A stretch of DNA of 26,284 nt from positions 1-26,284 of the IMG/VR virus record IMGVR_UViG_3300037563_000083, one strand, 5' to 3'. Position 1 is the stretch's first letter. Every line of letters begins with the position of its first letter. Under the pieces are notes generated by a model. The model was not told where the DNA came from. It was given only the letters and a program-made list of their open reading frames with translations, and made no database searches. The stretch comes from a virus. The position numbers were made by a program, and so were the translations under genes. Positions 3,183-20,777 of this stretch are shown here, piece by piece.

Positions 3183-3776
3183 ATGAACATCCTGAAGATC
3201 ACCAAAGCAGACCTTGATGAGCGCGGATTTTACGCAGCGTCCGAGAGCGTTAATTTTGACGGTGCGATTGAGATCGACGGCAATCTCGGTTGGGTGCAGT
3301 TTCGCGGGTTTTTGAGAGCCGCAGCGGGTATCGCCGCCAAGGCGGGCTCGGGCATCGAGGCGGGCTGGGGCATCAAGGCGGGCGAGGGCATCGAGGCGGG
3401 CTGGGGCATCAAGGCGGGCTGGGGCATCGAGGCGGGCTGGGGCATCAAGGCGGGCTGGGGCATCAAGGCGGGCTGGGGCATCGAGGCGGGCTGGGGCATC
3501 AAGGCGGGCTGGGGCATCGAGGCGGGCTGGGGCATCGAGGCGGGCTGGGGCATCAAGGCGGGCGAGGGCATCGAGGCGGGCTTCCAGATTTCCGCACGGA
3601 AAGCTATCAGCGCAAAACTGCGGATCTTCGCTGGCTTATGCATTTGGCGCGTTCCCGCAGCCACCGAGATGACGATCATCGCGCGCGAGGTAAACGGGTC
3701 CGTCTGCTACGGAGATGTGAAGTTGCTCACCGAGACGACGGAAGCGCCTACCGTAGCGAGGACGCGGACTAGCTAA
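3183..3776 (+). CDS. hexapeptide-repeat (GI[EK]AGW) phage protein, likely beta-helix
   Basis: A 197-residue protein. Residues 1-56 are non-repetitive (MNILKITKADLDERGFYAAS and a Trp/Gly strand region). Residues 57-134 are thirteen exact six-residue units, Gly-Ile-Glu/Lys-Ala-Gly-Trp, with Glu or Phe replacing Trp in three. The repeat then decays over QISARK AISAKL RIFAGL before a hydrophobic CIW segment. A strict six-residue period with Ile at position 2 and Gly at 1 and 5 suits a stacked left-handed beta-helix. The ATG at 3183 is chosen because GGAGG lies 6 bases upstream; a GTG at 3141 is less likely. Similar proteins occur in other phages without known function. Alternating Glu and Lys could form charge ladders along the coil. 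Confidence 0.8.
   Translation: MNILKITKADLDERGFYAASESVNFDGAIEIDGNLGWVQFRGFLRAAAGIAAKAGSGIEAGWGIKAGEGIEAGWGIKAGWGIEAGWGIKAGWGIKAGWGIEAGWGIKAGWGIEAGWGIEAGWGIKAGEGIEAGFQISARKAISAKLRIFAGLCIWRVPAATEMTIIAREVNGSVCYGDVKLLTETTEAPTVARTRTS
3351..3584 (+). repeat. 13 tandem 18-bp units (GGCATC[GA]AGGCGGGCTGG type)
   Basis: Thirteen in-frame 18-base units run without interruption. They differ almost only at the base that switches Glu (GAG) to Lys (AAG) and at the last codon (TGG, GAG or TTC). Near-identity at synonymous positions indicates recent expansion by slippage or unequal recombination rather than ancient structural conservation. Unit number is expected to vary between isolates. Confidence 0.95.
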
Positions 3777-3868: not shown

Positions 3869-4084
3869 ATGGAGCAGCAGGTTACAGGTCAGATCGCCAA
3901 CGTCATCAAGCAGGCCCGCTATGGGTTCATCCATGACGGCACCGGCAAGCGGTACTTTCTCCACCAGTCGGCCATGAGGGAGCGCCGGCCGATTCCACCG
4001 CAGGGAACGCGGGTCTCCTTCTTCATCGCACCACCCCTCGACAAAGAGAAGCTGGAACGCGCCGTCAACGTCGAGGTCTTATGA
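3869..4084 (+). CDS. cold-shock-domain-like protein
   Basis: A 71-residue protein with the outline of a cold-shock (S1-like OB-fold) domain: VTGQIANVIKQARYGFIHDG corresponds to the first strands with the RNP-1-like aromatic 'YGFI', KRYFLHQSAM to the RNP-2-like 'YFFH' strand, and GTRVSFFI to the later strand. It would bind single-stranded RNA or DNA. The ATG at 3869 is chosen because GAGGG lies just upstream and the domain begins at once; the longer GTG start at 3779 adds an unrelated basic segment. The stop overlaps the start of the HNH gene (ATGA). The 92-base gap before it contains a GGTGCACC palindrome but no clear promoter. Confidence 0.75.
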   Translation: MEQQVTGQIANVIKQARYGFIHDGTGKRYFLHQSAMRERRPIPPQGTRVSFFIAPPLDKEKLERAVNVEVL

Positions 4085-4506
4085 GAAGGCTACCTCTTCC
4101 TGAGCGCATTCGACGGAACATCAACGTCAATCCGACGACGGATTGCTGGGAGTGGAAGCTCGCTTGCGACCGCCACGGGTATGGAAAGATTCGCATGGAA
4201 AACGGCCCGCAACTGGCGCATCGAGTCTCTTATTCAACGTTCGTTGGGCCGATTCCTTCTGCTCTGACTATCGATCACCTCTGCCGCAATCGGCGTTGCG
4301 TGAACCCTAAACATCTCGAAGCTGTGACGCGCAAGGAAAACACCTTGCGCGGAGAGGGTGTGTGCGCCGTCCATGCGCGCCAGACACATTGCGCCAGCGG
4401 TCACCCTCTCTCTGGCGCGAATCTCTATTCCTGGCATGGCTCACGGGCCTGCAAACAGTGTCGTCATGCCGCGACTAAAAGCTACCGGGTAAAGGAGGCA
4501 GCATGA
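4081..4506 (+). CDS. HNH endonuclease (free-standing, homing type)
   Basis: A 141-residue protein. The N-terminal half carries the standard HNH core: DCWEW near residue 21, LAHRVSY near 46, IDHLCRNRRCVNPKHLE at 64-80 with D65/H66, N75 and H78, and a following KEN at 85-87. The C-terminal third is a separate Cys/His module (THCASGHPLSGANLYSW, then CKQCRH) shared with the HNH protein at 9703-10200, so the two are likely paralogues. It nicks or cuts double-stranded DNA. It sits between small genes and splits none. The start overlaps the previous stop and the stop overlaps the next start. Confidence 0.9.
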   Translation: MRRLPLPERIRRNINVNPTTDCWEWKLACDRHGYGKIRMENGPQLAHRVSYSTFVGPIPSALTIDHLCRNRRCVNPKHLEAVTRKENTLRGEGVCAVHARQTHCASGHPLSGANLYSWHGSRACKQCRHAATKSYRVKEAA

Positions 4507-9522: not shown

Positions 9523-9706
9523 CACCAGCAGATCGACACAATGGTCGGAAGCGCCCGCGAAGCCGAGTTACAAGATGTGCCTGCACCGGCAGTGGGAGTG
9601 GCCATTCAAGAGCTGCACCCGGCCCCAGGGACATGAGGGCGAGCACTGCGAAGAGAGACGCGCCGGGACCGTGATGGTCTCGACCTGGTGGCGGAGGGAA
9701 CCGTGA
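9512..9706 (+). CDS. small Cys/His hypothetical protein
   Basis: A 64-residue protein with MCLHRQWEWPFKSCTRPQGH and then HEGEHC, a C/H pattern seen in short phage proteins that probably bind zinc. The start lies 11 bases inside the zinc-ribbon gene, and the stop (9704-9706) overlaps the GTG start of the HNH gene. No family is recognised. Confidence 0.6.
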   Translation: MGNNTSRSTQWSEAPAKPSYKMCLHRQWEWPFKSCTRPQGHEGEHCEERRAGTVMVSTWWRREP

Positions 9707-10200
9707 GCAACATTACAGTCAACGAACTATCTCTGCATTTCTGGCCCCGTGTTGACCGTACACCCGGGCTGGGTCCGCAAGGCGACTGCTGGGAGTGGAC
9801 GGGGCCTATATCGGTCGGCTATGGGGCGGTGTGCTTCGACAGTTTCCACCTCCATGCGCATCGGGCGTCTTGGTGGATTGCGAACGGGCGCGAGCCTAAC
9901 GGTCTAGTTTGCCACACATGTGACAACAGAAAATGCGTGAACCCATCGCACCTATACGAAGGCGACCACTCCTCAAATATCCAGGACGCATGGGATCGAG
10001 GAAGAAGAGCCCCGAGAGAGACAACCATCCCGGCGCACTGCGCCAACGGCCACGAATTGACTGGCGACAATCTCTATCTTTGGGTGAATAAGGCTAACAA
10101 GTACTCCACCAGTCCGCGCGTTCAGTGTCGCGCCTGCAAGGCAATCAACTTCGAGAGGTTCTACGCGAAACGGAGGGCATCCCATGCAACTGCATCTTGA
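9703..10200 (+). CDS. HNH endonuclease, second paralogue
   Basis: A 165-residue protein with the HNH core: DCWEW at 28-32, HAHRASWW near 51, then VCHTCDNRKCVNPSHLYEG at 69-87 with H71, N80 and H83, and N92 following. The C-terminal part (AHCANGHELTGDNLYLW, then CRACK) is the same Cys/His module as in the HNH protein at 4081-4506. The GTG at 9703 is chosen because it overlaps the previous TGA and has GGAGGG about 7 bases upstream; a GTG at 9688 is possible. The gene ends 17 bases inside the next one. Confidence 0.88.
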   Translation: MSNITVNELSLHFWPRVDRTPGLGPQGDCWEWTGPISVGYGAVCFDSFHLHAHRASWWIANGREPNGLVCHTCDNRKCVNPSHLYEGDHSSNIQDAWDRGRRAPRETTIPAHCANGHELTGDNLYLWVNKANKYSTSPRVQCRACKAINFERFYAKRRASHATAS

Positions 10201-13063: not shown

Positions 13064-13561
13064 ATGGAAAATACTGTTACTAAAGAGATTCCCCTTACGC
13101 GCGGTTTGGTTGCGTTGGTTGACGCGGCCGACTACGAATGGCTCTCGCAGTGGAAGTGGAGCGCGACGACGCGACGCGGAGAGTCTTATTACGCCGTTCG
13201 ACTGGATTCAGATGGCAAGGCGATCTACATGCACCGAGCGATCCTTGGATTAGACGCGGGTGATCGTCGCCTCAGCGATCACATCGATAGGAACAAGCTC
13301 AATAACATCCGCTCCAATCTGCGCATCTGTTGCGCTTCCGAAAATATGCGGAATTGCGGGAGGCATCGCAACAACCGAAGTGGATTCAAGGGAGTCAGTT
13401 GGGATCGCCTCAGTAAAACATGGCAGGTGCATATTCGGACCGGGAGCGGTCGATCAAGCAAAAGAATCAAGGTGGGCAATTACTCCAAAGCAGAGCTCGC
13501 CCATATGGCCTACCGCGAGGCTGCGAAGAGATTTCACGGGGAATTTGCCTGTGCGGAGTGA
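13064..13561 (+). CDS. HNH endonuclease with C-terminal AP2 DNA-binding domain
   Basis: A 165-residue protein of the homing-endonuclease type. The N-terminal part (residues 8-60: IPLTRGLVALVDAADYEWLS to YMHRAILGL) is the usual lead-in. The HNH core follows with SDHIDRNKLNNIRSNLR (D72, H73, N80) and N94 in ASENMRN. Residues about 105-160 form an AP2-type domain (RSGFKGVSWDRLSKTWQVHI, then AYREAAKRFHGEFA) that contacts DNA bases. GGGGGGAG lies about 6 bases before the ATG. It differs clearly from the other two HNH proteins and so arrived separately. Confidence 0.92.
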   Translation: MENTVTKEIPLTRGLVALVDAADYEWLSQWKWSATTRRGESYYAVRLDSDGKAIYMHRAILGLDAGDRRLSDHIDRNKLNNIRSNLRICCASENMRNCGRHRNNRSGFKGVSWDRLSKTWQVHIRTGSGRSSKRIKVGNYSKAELAHMAYREAAKRFHGEFACAE

Positions 13562-18534: not shown

Positions 18535-19968
18535 ATGGCCACTGAAATCCAAGTAGCAGCGGACCGTCCGAGTCTGATCGACCGCCTGCGCTCCGCATGG
18601 CAGGGATGGTACGACCCGTCCGCGCCGATCCCGCCGGTGGCACCCGCTGGAACGCCTCCGCGCCAGTTCGATTACCCGCTGGTGCTGAACCAGACCTGGC
18701 TCCCGCGCGCCGGCGAGAAGGTGGGCTTCCACCAATTGCGCATGATGGCCGACGGCTGCTATCTCATCCGCGCCATCATCGACAAAGTCATTGCCAGGAT
18801 CATCACCAAGAACTGGCACTTCCGGCTGAAACCCCAGGCTGGCGAGTACATGGCGCAGACCAAGGATCGGTCGAACAAAGACCCGCGCATCCAGGCTCTG
18901 ACCAACTTCTTTCAGATGCCCGATTCGACGCACAGCTTCCCGGTGTGGCTGGGGATGCTGCTCGAAGACCGGCTGGTGATCGACGCCCCCACCCTCGAAG
19001 TGCAGCGCACCCGCGGCGGCGACATCTTCAACCTGATGCCCGTCGATGGGGCGACCATCAATGTCCTGATCGATAACACCGGGCGCCGCCCCATGTACCC
19101 GCTGCCCGCTTACCGGCAGATCGTCAAGGGACTGCCCGCTATCGACTTCACCACGCGCGACCTGATTTACATGCCCGGCAAGGTCCGCAACCATAAGCTC
19201 TACGGCTATTCGCCCGTCGAGCAGACGCTGGGCATCATCCTCACCCTGATTTACAAGACGGTGATGCACCAGGACTGGTACGACGAGTCGAACATCCCGC
19301 TCGCGTACATGACCATGCCCGAGAACATGAGCACGACAGAGATTCTGCGGCTCATCCGGGAGATTCAAGCCTCGAACAACGGCAATCTCGAAGAGCGCGT
19401 GAAGATCCTGCCCGTGCCCAACGGCGGCAAGGTCGAACTGCTCAAGAAGGAAGAGTTCCAGCCCAAGTTCGAAGAGTGGTGCGCGCGCATCTTCGCTTAC
19501 GTGATGGGCGAAACGGCGACGCCGTTCGTGCAGCAGAACAACCGGGCCACGGCCCAGCAGTCAGACGACACCCGCGAGGAATCCGGCGAGAAGCCGCTCA
19601 CCTTCTGGGTGAAGAACGAAATCGACCAGATCGTGCAGCGGCGCGACCTCTTCAATGCGCCCGACATCGAGTTCGTCTACGACGAGGAAGCTGAGACCGA
19701 CGCTCTCAAACAGGCGCAGGTCGATCAGATCAACGTGGCCATCGGGACGCGCGTCGCTGATGAGTTACGCCAGCGCGACGGCCTCTCGCCGCTCTGGGAA
19801 GACTCGGGCGGCAACCCACCGCAGCCGTCCATGATGGTGGCCACCGAGGAAGACCAGGACGAGCCCGGCGACGACGACCAGGGCGGCGGCAATCCCAAGC
19901 CGAAGAAGGACGGCAAGAAGGTAAGCAAGGCGGCGGTCGCTCAAAAAAAAACTCTACACCGCTACTGA
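18535..19968 (+). CDS. phage portal protein (HK97-like)
   Basis: The zero-frame product has 477 residues. Portal features include the basic N-terminal arm, the stretch DRLVIDAPTLEVQRTRGGDI, the LIYMPGKVRNHKLYGYSPVE wing/stem block, YDESNIPLAYMTMP, and the C-terminal crown with RREDLFN-like QRRDLFNAPDIEFVYDEE. The end is disordered and charged (EEDQDEPGDDDQGGGNP). It forms the dodecameric ring through which DNA enters the head. A TTG at 18529 overlaps the previous stop; the ATG at 18535 is preferred. The frame runs into nine A bases and stops at 19966. A -1 shift there continues into the MuF-like frame. Confidence 0.9.
   Translation: MATEIQVAADRPSLIDRLRSAWQGWYDPSAPIPPVAPAGTPPRQFDYPLVLNQTWLPRAGEKVGFHQLRMMADGCYLIRAIIDKVIARIITKNWHFRLKPQAGEYMAQTKDRSNKDPRIQALTNFFQMPDSTHSFPVWLGMLLEDRLVIDAPTLEVQRTRGGDIFNLMPVDGATINVLIDNTGRRPMYPLPAYRQIVKGLPAIDFTTRDLIYMPGKVRNHKLYGYSPVEQTLGIILTLIYKTVMHQDWYDESNIPLAYMTMPENMSTTEILRLIREIQASNNGNLEERVKILPVPNGGKVELLKKEEFQPKFEEWCARIFAYVMGETATPFVQQNNRATAQQSDDTREESGEKPLTFWVKNEIDQIVQRRDLFNAPDIEFVYDEEAETDALKQAQVDQINVAIGTRVADELRQRDGLSPLWEDSGGNPPQPSMMVATEEDQDEPGDDDQGGGNPKPKKDGKKVSKAAVAQKKTLHRY
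19943..19951 (+). other. A9 slippery run: candidate -1 frameshift or slippage site
   Basis: Nine consecutive A bases lie in the portal frame as CAA AAA AAA ACT. The heptamer A AAA AAA (19944-19950) is the canonical -1 pattern. A -1 shift leads into the open MuF frame, which has no ATG, GTG or TTG before 20061. A 6-bp hairpin, CGGCCC at 19975-19980 with GGGCCG at 19986-19991, lies 24 bases downstream, further than usual for a ribosomal stimulator. Confidence 0.65.
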
Positions 19969-20777
19969 TTGACCCGGCCCACTTCGGGCCGAAGCGCAGA
20001 GCAGCCACCGACCACATCGAAGCGACGCTGAAAGGCTTCTTCGCCGCACAGCGCGTCTCGGTGAGCCGGGTGATTGAGAAGTACCTACCCGGCGTGCACA
20101 AAGCCGCAGGCGATACCACGCCGCCCGATGTTGAGGCCATCCTGGCCGCAATCGACTTCAGCGTGTGGGATGCGCTGGCCAGCCAAATGAAACCCGACCT
20201 CGAAGCGACGGCGCAGGAGGCCGTTACGACGGTCTTCGCCACGCTGAACCTGAGCACCGAAGGCTCGGACCTGTTCAACCTGTCCGATACCCAGGCGCTT
20301 GAATACGCCGAGATGCGCTCGGCAGAGCTGGTCGGCAAGAAGTGGGTGGATGGCGTTCTGGTGGACAATCCCAGCGCGCAGTGGGCCATCACCGAGACAA
20401 CCCGCGAGGATCTGCGCGAGATGATCGGGCAGGCCTTCGCCGAGCAATGGACGCCGGCACAACTCGCCCGGCACATCGACGAGTCCTTCACCTTCTCCGC
20501 CGGCCGCGCGGAGATGATCGCAGAGACCGAGACGGCCTTTGCGCAGACAGCGGCCACGGTCCAGACCGGAAAGAACCTCGGGGCCACAACCAAGTCGCTG
20601 TCGATGTCGAACCTGCATGACATCGACGACGAGTGCGATCTGGCGCAGGCGGCCGGGCAGATTCCGATTGACGACCCGTTCCCCGGCGGCGCATTGCATG
20701 TCCCCCTTCACCCGCGCTGCTGTTGCGTGGAGATGGTCCACGTTCCAAAGCCCACAAAGGAGCCCGACAATGATTAG
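19950..20777 (+). CDS. MuF / SPP1-gp7-like head morphogenesis domain (likely portal extension)
   Basis: Frame 0 is clearly coding from the A9 run onward: LLIDPAHFGPKRRAATDHIE then a helix GFFAAQRVSVSRVIEKYLPG, and later blocks NPSAQWAITETTREDLREMI, AQLARHIDESFTFSAGRAEM, and the C-terminal HVPLHPRCCCVEMVHV, the usual Pro-His-Pro-Arg-Cys end of MuF proteins. The part after the shift has 275 residues; joined to the portal it makes 747. GTG at 20061 would cut off the first helices. MuF proteins help head assembly and are often packaged inside. It may be made only by frameshift or slippage, or the A run may be miscounted. Confidence 0.8.
   Translation, partial: NSTPLLIDPAHFGPKRRAATDHIEATLKGFFAAQRVSVSRVIEKYLPGVHKAAGDTTPPDVEAILAAIDFSVWDALASQMKPDLEATAQEAVTTVFATLNLSTEGSDLFNLSDTQALEYAEMRSAELVGKKWVDGVLVDNPSAQWAITETTREDLREMIGQAFAEQWTPAQLARHIDESFTFSAGRAEMIAETETAFAQTAATVQTGKNLGATTKSLSMSNLHDIDDECDLAQAAGQIPIDDPFPGGALHVPLHPRCCCVEMVHVPKPTKEPDND

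Follow-up and report, generated by a model that had tools for sequence, protein, structure and literature searches.

Programmed frameshifting in the virion genes of phages is best known from the tail assembly chaperones, along with a few capsid and tail-tube genes, and some of the chaperone G/GT frameshifts take place on G_GGA_AAR. The tau and gamma products of dnaX arise in E. coli by ribosomal -1 frameshifting at A AAA AAG and in Thermus thermophilus by RNA-polymerase slippage on nine As, a run that slips efficiently in vivo and yields about 50% of each product in T. thermophilus (PMC5009743, PMC1088944). Among phage head proteins, the portal of SPP1 binds few copies of gp7, which is designated a MuF protein (PMC6316719), and the minor protein gp44 of 80alpha is present at about 2 copies per capsid (PMC7290940). 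Portal and MuF domains are joined in one polypeptide in the portal-MuF fusions of Microbacterium EA/EB and Arthrobacter Sonali phages (PMC7302621), and PRFect has raised the possibility that gene pairs found fused elsewhere, VIP2-MuF being named, use frameshifting (PMC10885494). Our search of the open-licence literature found no description of portal or MuF frameshifting, and, it seems, no slip site in a portal gene has been reported before.

In this work, we analyzed a portal/MuF locus in a virus record of 26,284 bases with a GC content of 62%, the whole of which we call the window (Table 1). Its portal and MuF frames very probably constitute one gene with a programmed -1 recoding site, giving rise to a short portal and a portal-MuF protein. 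The locus resembles dnaX in using the same slippery sequences to make, as predicted, a truncated and a full-length product from one gene, and the family contains both sites of the E. coli type (A6-A7 with a Shine-Dalgarno sequence and a stem-loop) and sites of the Thermus type (A9 with neither). It differs from dnaX in the gene concerned, in occurring both fused and split, and in the conserved C-terminal tyrosine of the predicted short portal. With the tail assembly chaperone G/GT it would share a phage structural gene expressed as a short major and a long minor product by -1 recoding, whereas the module (head/portal), the domains (portal and MuF), and the A9-A10 class of site are different. 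Like SPP1 gp6/gp7 and 80alpha gp42/gp44, the locus encodes a low-copy minor head protein beside the portal (gp44 is likened by this trait alone), but those are separate genes whose copy number is not set by recoding. No recoding has been reported for the Microbacterium EA/EB and Sonali fusions, unlike what we propose for the window, and the slip site is absent from the portal/MuF junction of the Sonali and Brevundimonas phages.

Table 1. Features of the portal/MuF junction, in window coordinates.
Feature	Position	Strand	Basis
A9 slippage run	19943..19951	+	sequence; same in independent contigs and relatives
-1 slippery heptamer A_AAA_AAA in the portal frame	19944..19950	+	computed phase
Portal ORF (predicted short product, 477 aa, ending KKTLHRY-stop)	18535..19968	+	translation, Pfam, AlphaFold/Foldseek
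CGC TAC TGA, conserved Arg-Tyr-stop end of the predicted short portal	19960..19968	+	Tyr-stop in 17/22 split loci, 0.9 expected
MuF part (275 residues), reached by a -1 shift at 19944-19950	19950..20777	+	frames, Pfam PF04233
Stretch of the MuF frame open without ATG/GTG/TTG	19764..20060	+	start-codon scan
GC-rich hairpin CGGCCCACTTCGGGCCG, ~25 nt past the A9 run	19976..19992	+	structure prediction

The portal ORF is predicted to have the phage portal fold. Its match to Pfam PF04860 (E=3.5e-6, 26.9 bits) lies under the curated cut-off of 39.1, and its AlphaFold model (pLDDT 79) matches the portals of phage 812, HK97, and a gene transfer agent (GTA), with Foldseek E-values down to 7e-18. The MuF part matches PF04233, the MuF / SPP1 gp7 family, also under the curated cut-off (E=4.9e-5; 24.5 bits against 29.6). 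Its AlphaFold model is confident (pLDDT 91) and matched no PDB fold at E<0.001; sequence searches of the PDB with the portal and MuF profiles returned nothing useful. As no solved structural relative was matched, we tentatively assign the MuF identity from the profile match, the conserved HPxCxC at the C-terminus, and the gene position. In the ORF list, portal/MuF is preceded by a TerL-like ORF and followed by a capsid-like one. At the nucleotide level, the window matched none of the phage records searched.

The initial annotation had read portal and MuF as one 747-residue protein joined by a -1 shift, and the geometry of the junction agrees with it in each particular. Over the junction, the portal frame runs CAA AAA AAA ACT CTA CAC CGC TAC TGA, with the stop at 19966-19968, closely following the A9 run as that annotation had it. 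The MuF frame, in -1, begins KKNSTPLLIDPAHFGPKRR... and stops at 20775-20777; from its opening at 19764, its first ATG, GTG, or TTG is the GTG at 20061, which sits within the first long helix of the MuF AlphaFold model (H16-45). The computed phase places A AAA AAA in the zero frame as an X XXY YYZ heptamer, the standard -1 pattern, with the downstream product continuing in -1, and a shift there joins 472 portal residues to 275 MuF residues in the expected 747-residue fusion. This A9 is the sole run of at least seven A or T in the 26 kb window, where 0.04 runs of A9 or longer are expected on the window strand. Judged from its frame and start codons, the MuF part is a continuation of the portal gene and not a separately started gene.

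The run and the frame relation are identical in six further contigs of the window phage (L002-L006 and L010, 99.9-100% identical here), and run length does not vary among the assemblies of this phage, which are consensus sequences. Both are also kept in relatives: L007 (portal 96% identical, DNA identity 93%) has the same stop, as does L008 (DNA identity 86%), which with L022 has a portal 87% identical to that of the window; L014 and L163 (73% at MuF) have A10, yet keep the -1 frame relation. In a further four relatives (L009, L016, L017, and L038), portal and MuF are fused in frame with A9 still in place. We can now choose between the two alternatives that the initial annotation had offered. 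That a single A was gained or lost, by mutation or by sequencing error, in a simple fusion gene might be suggested by the fused relatives L009, L016, and L017, and by a near-identical pair that differs by one A in such a run (L062 and L065, 99.94% identical); however, seven contigs of the window phage share this A9, as do relatives that have the same stop and portals as little as 87% identical, and this, together with the conservation of the Tyr-stop described below, leaves the idea scarcely credible. Mutation or sequencing error is rejected as the origin of the A9 on the strength of the independent contigs and diverged relatives, and the other alternative, a programmed short portal with some fusion, is supported by the conserved run and the conserved end of the predicted short product.

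A wider survey placed the window in a large family of such junctions. Scanning with MuF alignments recovered 228 loci that have both domains, and these form 100 clusters at 90% identity; a scan of genome contigs returned four loci only. A canonical -1 slippery sequence (A9-A10, A6-A7, GGGAAAA/G, or CCCTTTA/C) is present at the junction in 53 of the 100 clusters, 22 of them split, with MuF in the -1 frame, and 31 fused, with MuF in frame. All 18 adjacent split loci that have no MuF start are of the -1 type, and all 18 carry A_AAA_AAA, G_GGA_AAA, or C_CCT_TTA/C in the overlap, against none of the nine split loci with a usable MuF start (Fisher P about 2e-7, calculated by hand and ignoring kinship). 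Four more split loci have the heptamer and a doubtful TTG near the portal stop.

These counts bear on whether MuF is made separately in the window, either through a non-standard start or through re-initiation close to where the portal stops. Homologs with their own MuF start, which would speak against a joined gene, do exist, but in a minority only: L069, L134, and L167 have ATG/GTG starts with a Shine-Dalgarno sequence at the portal stop, and none of these has a slippery sequence at the junction. The slip site is absent from loci with a usable start, while the window has no in-frame ATG, GTG, or TTG before 20061 and no Shine-Dalgarno sequence there, and we hold a separately made MuF to be highly improbable.

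Fused genes keep the slip site as well. In 55 fused clusters, an in-frame A_AAA_AAR at positions -80 to -35 relative to MuF occurs 28 times where synonymous shuffling predicts 4.8, and runs of at least nine As occur in 15 fused clusters against 1.9 expected; outside the junction, these clusters have A_AAA_AAR at 11 of 40,565 codon positions. Synonymous shuffling also rules out an amino-acid constraint from a lysine-rich linker as the cause of the A run. The A9 is a homopolymer of at least nine A/T on the coding strand that selection has kept, as is looked for in a polymerase-slippage site. About 20 fused clusters, Brevundimonas phages among them, have no slippery site, and mixed rings of the kind proposed below are therefore not obligatory in the family. 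By a fewest-changes count on the tree, fused and split arrangements have interchanged at least seven times among the A9-A10 rows, and the slippery class has changed at least 22 times overall; for example, L198 has A9 and its relatives L199 and L222 have G_GGA_AAA. In four loci (L056, L062, L082, and L091), the same A9/A10 run follows the portal and the next partner is another ORF or domain, not MuF; recoding is therefore not tied to MuF.

The strongest evidence for recoding, and for its -1 direction, is the predicted C-terminus of the short portal. Split loci end this product in tyrosine in 17 of 22 cases, where synonymous shuffles of the MuF frame give an expectation of 0.9, and the -1 product of fused genes does so in 19 of 31 against 1.7 expected (P about 4e-19, a value that, like all our shuffle P values, counts clusters as independent and ignores the shared ancestry of related loci). 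The +1 product of fused genes ends in tyrosine in two cases against 0.5 expected. Across the junctions of the 53 clusters, Tyr-stop is far above chance, and the end is often Arg-Tyr-stop. MuF conservation does not explain this, because the MuF-frame residues beneath the Tyr-stop, from codons read by eye, vary between loci. Where fused loci have no slip site at the usual place, a Tyr-stop in the -1 frame is very rare, and most of the exceptions carry a slippery sequence at another point of the linker (L111, L113, L153, and L207). A point against recoding is that the -1 tails of fused loci are no shorter than chance; selection for early -1 stops was looked for and not found. From the conserved tyrosine ends in both split and fused loci, it follows that the short portal is probably a selected product in both arrangements and that the shift is in the -1 direction. 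As to what the terminal tyrosine does, the simplest idea is that it makes a contact, either inside the ring or to a partner in the head or tail. A Neisseria gonorrhoeae prophage combines G_GGA_AAG with the -1 end CRAY-stop. We also observed a textbook cassette in a cultivated strain, a Herbaspirillum seropedicae AU13965 plasmid prophage (L249 2889, NZ_CP034394.1), where AAGGAGG, A AAA AAA in an A7 run, and a strong stem-loop sit in an annotated single portal gene with the -1 end RPVY-stop. An A7 run is likewise present in a prophage of another cultivated strain, Paludibacterium purpuratum CECT 8976 (L103).

An A run could also act as a phase-variable genomic switch that alternates fused and short genomes. 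Two records of one near-identical phage, 99.94% identical over 8.6 kb, carry after the portal an A9 with a split ORF (L062 2379) and an A10 with a fused ORF (L065 2378), and genomic length change therefore does occur in the family. For the window we consider such a switch very unlikely, as run length is constant among the assemblies of the window phage, and relatives with A6-A7, GGGAAAA, or CCCTTTA, which cannot phase-vary in this way, nevertheless keep the shift and the tyrosine end.

With programmed recoding as the preferred reading, there are two routes to the same pair of products, and the initial annotation had named both. Among junction A runs of at least six, lengths are 6-7 or 9-10, never 8 and never above 10. 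The A6-A7 sites are flanked by Shine-Dalgarno-like sequences upstream (median duplex energy -7.5) and by a stem-loop downstream (median z -2.25), whereas the A9-A10 sites are mostly without both (medians -2.9 and 0.12; Mann-Whitney p=5e-5 for the Shine-Dalgarno and p=2e-4 for the stem-loop). Such stimulators help ribosomal frameshifting and are not always required. The window falls in the A9-A10 class: it has no Shine-Dalgarno sequence ~8-14 nt upstream and no structure ~5-9 nt downstream of the slip site, only a weak AAGG match and the hairpin at 19976-19992, which at ~25 nt is too distant for a classical stimulator and is poorly kept in L163. Loss of one A from the run of a fused A9-A10 gene leads into a frame with an unusually early stop (mean percentile 0.21, p=3e-5), as would be expected if polymerase slippage yields several lengths; in a split A9 gene, the fusion comes from one added A, and short portals result from A8, A9, and A11.

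Ribosomal -1 frameshifting on A AAA AAA as the main route at the A9 is a serious but less favored explanation. The heptamer is in phase, a -1 shift is what all split loci need, and relatives use A7, G_GGA_AAA, or C_CCT_TTA, expected to be slippery to ribosomes only, with the A6-A7 relatives carrying a Shine-Dalgarno sequence and a stem-loop. A ribosomal route fits less well with an A9-A10 class that has no Shine-Dalgarno sequence or well-placed stem-loop, or with the skipping of length 8, and a -1 ribosomal shift does not explain the early stop of the one-A-loss frame. Both routes are thus retained for the A9. Because the A9-A10 class mostly lacks ribosomal stimulators, the site resembles that of Thermus dnaX, and the one-A-loss frames of fused A9-A10 genes stop early, we infer that RNA-polymerase slippage is the somewhat likelier of the two to dominate in the window.

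The reading of one recoded gene is built on the frame relation, the conserved slip site, the lack of any start for MuF, and the conserved C-terminus of the predicted short product, all of which can be seen in the DNA itself; that both proteins are made, in what ratio, and in a mixed ring is our extrapolation from these. We expect that most transcripts or ribosomes would stay in the genomic frame and give the short portal ending in HRY. A fraction of transcripts would gain one A (A9 to A10) when RNA polymerase slips, or a ribosome would slip back one base on A AAA AAA, and either event would give the same 747-residue portal-MuF fusion. The purpose would be stoichiometry: a portal ring with the MuF domain on only some subunits would place the low-copy minor head protein MuF at the portal vertex, and its presence on a minority of the subunits of a 12-subunit ring would set its low copy number. 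Evenly balanced, in our judgment, is the broader proposal that a family of tailed phages builds mixed portal rings in which the number of MuF domains is set by recoding, that the short form needs its exact C-terminal tyrosine as an unrecognized functional signal, and that lineages pass freely from fused to split genes and back, and likewise between polymerase slippage and ribosomal frameshifting, while both products are kept.

Programmed recoding of portal and MuF would, if true, account for the placing of a low-copy head protein on a ring of 12-fold symmetry, and it would correct many annotations, both of short portals followed by a startless MuF and of fused portals thought to make a single product. 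The family would also offer a natural set of homologs in which polymerase slippage and ribosomal frameshifting replace one another, and the conservation of the last tyrosine suggests that the portal C-terminus has a new function, one that is easy to test.

Two further features of the window lie away from the portal. A repetitive coding stretch at about 3290-3680 is open in several frames, reading KAGWGIEAGWGI in one and GHRGGLGHQGG in another, and three HNH endonuclease-like ORFs, recognized by eye, lie among the early genes at 4081-4506, 9688-10200, and 13064-13561.
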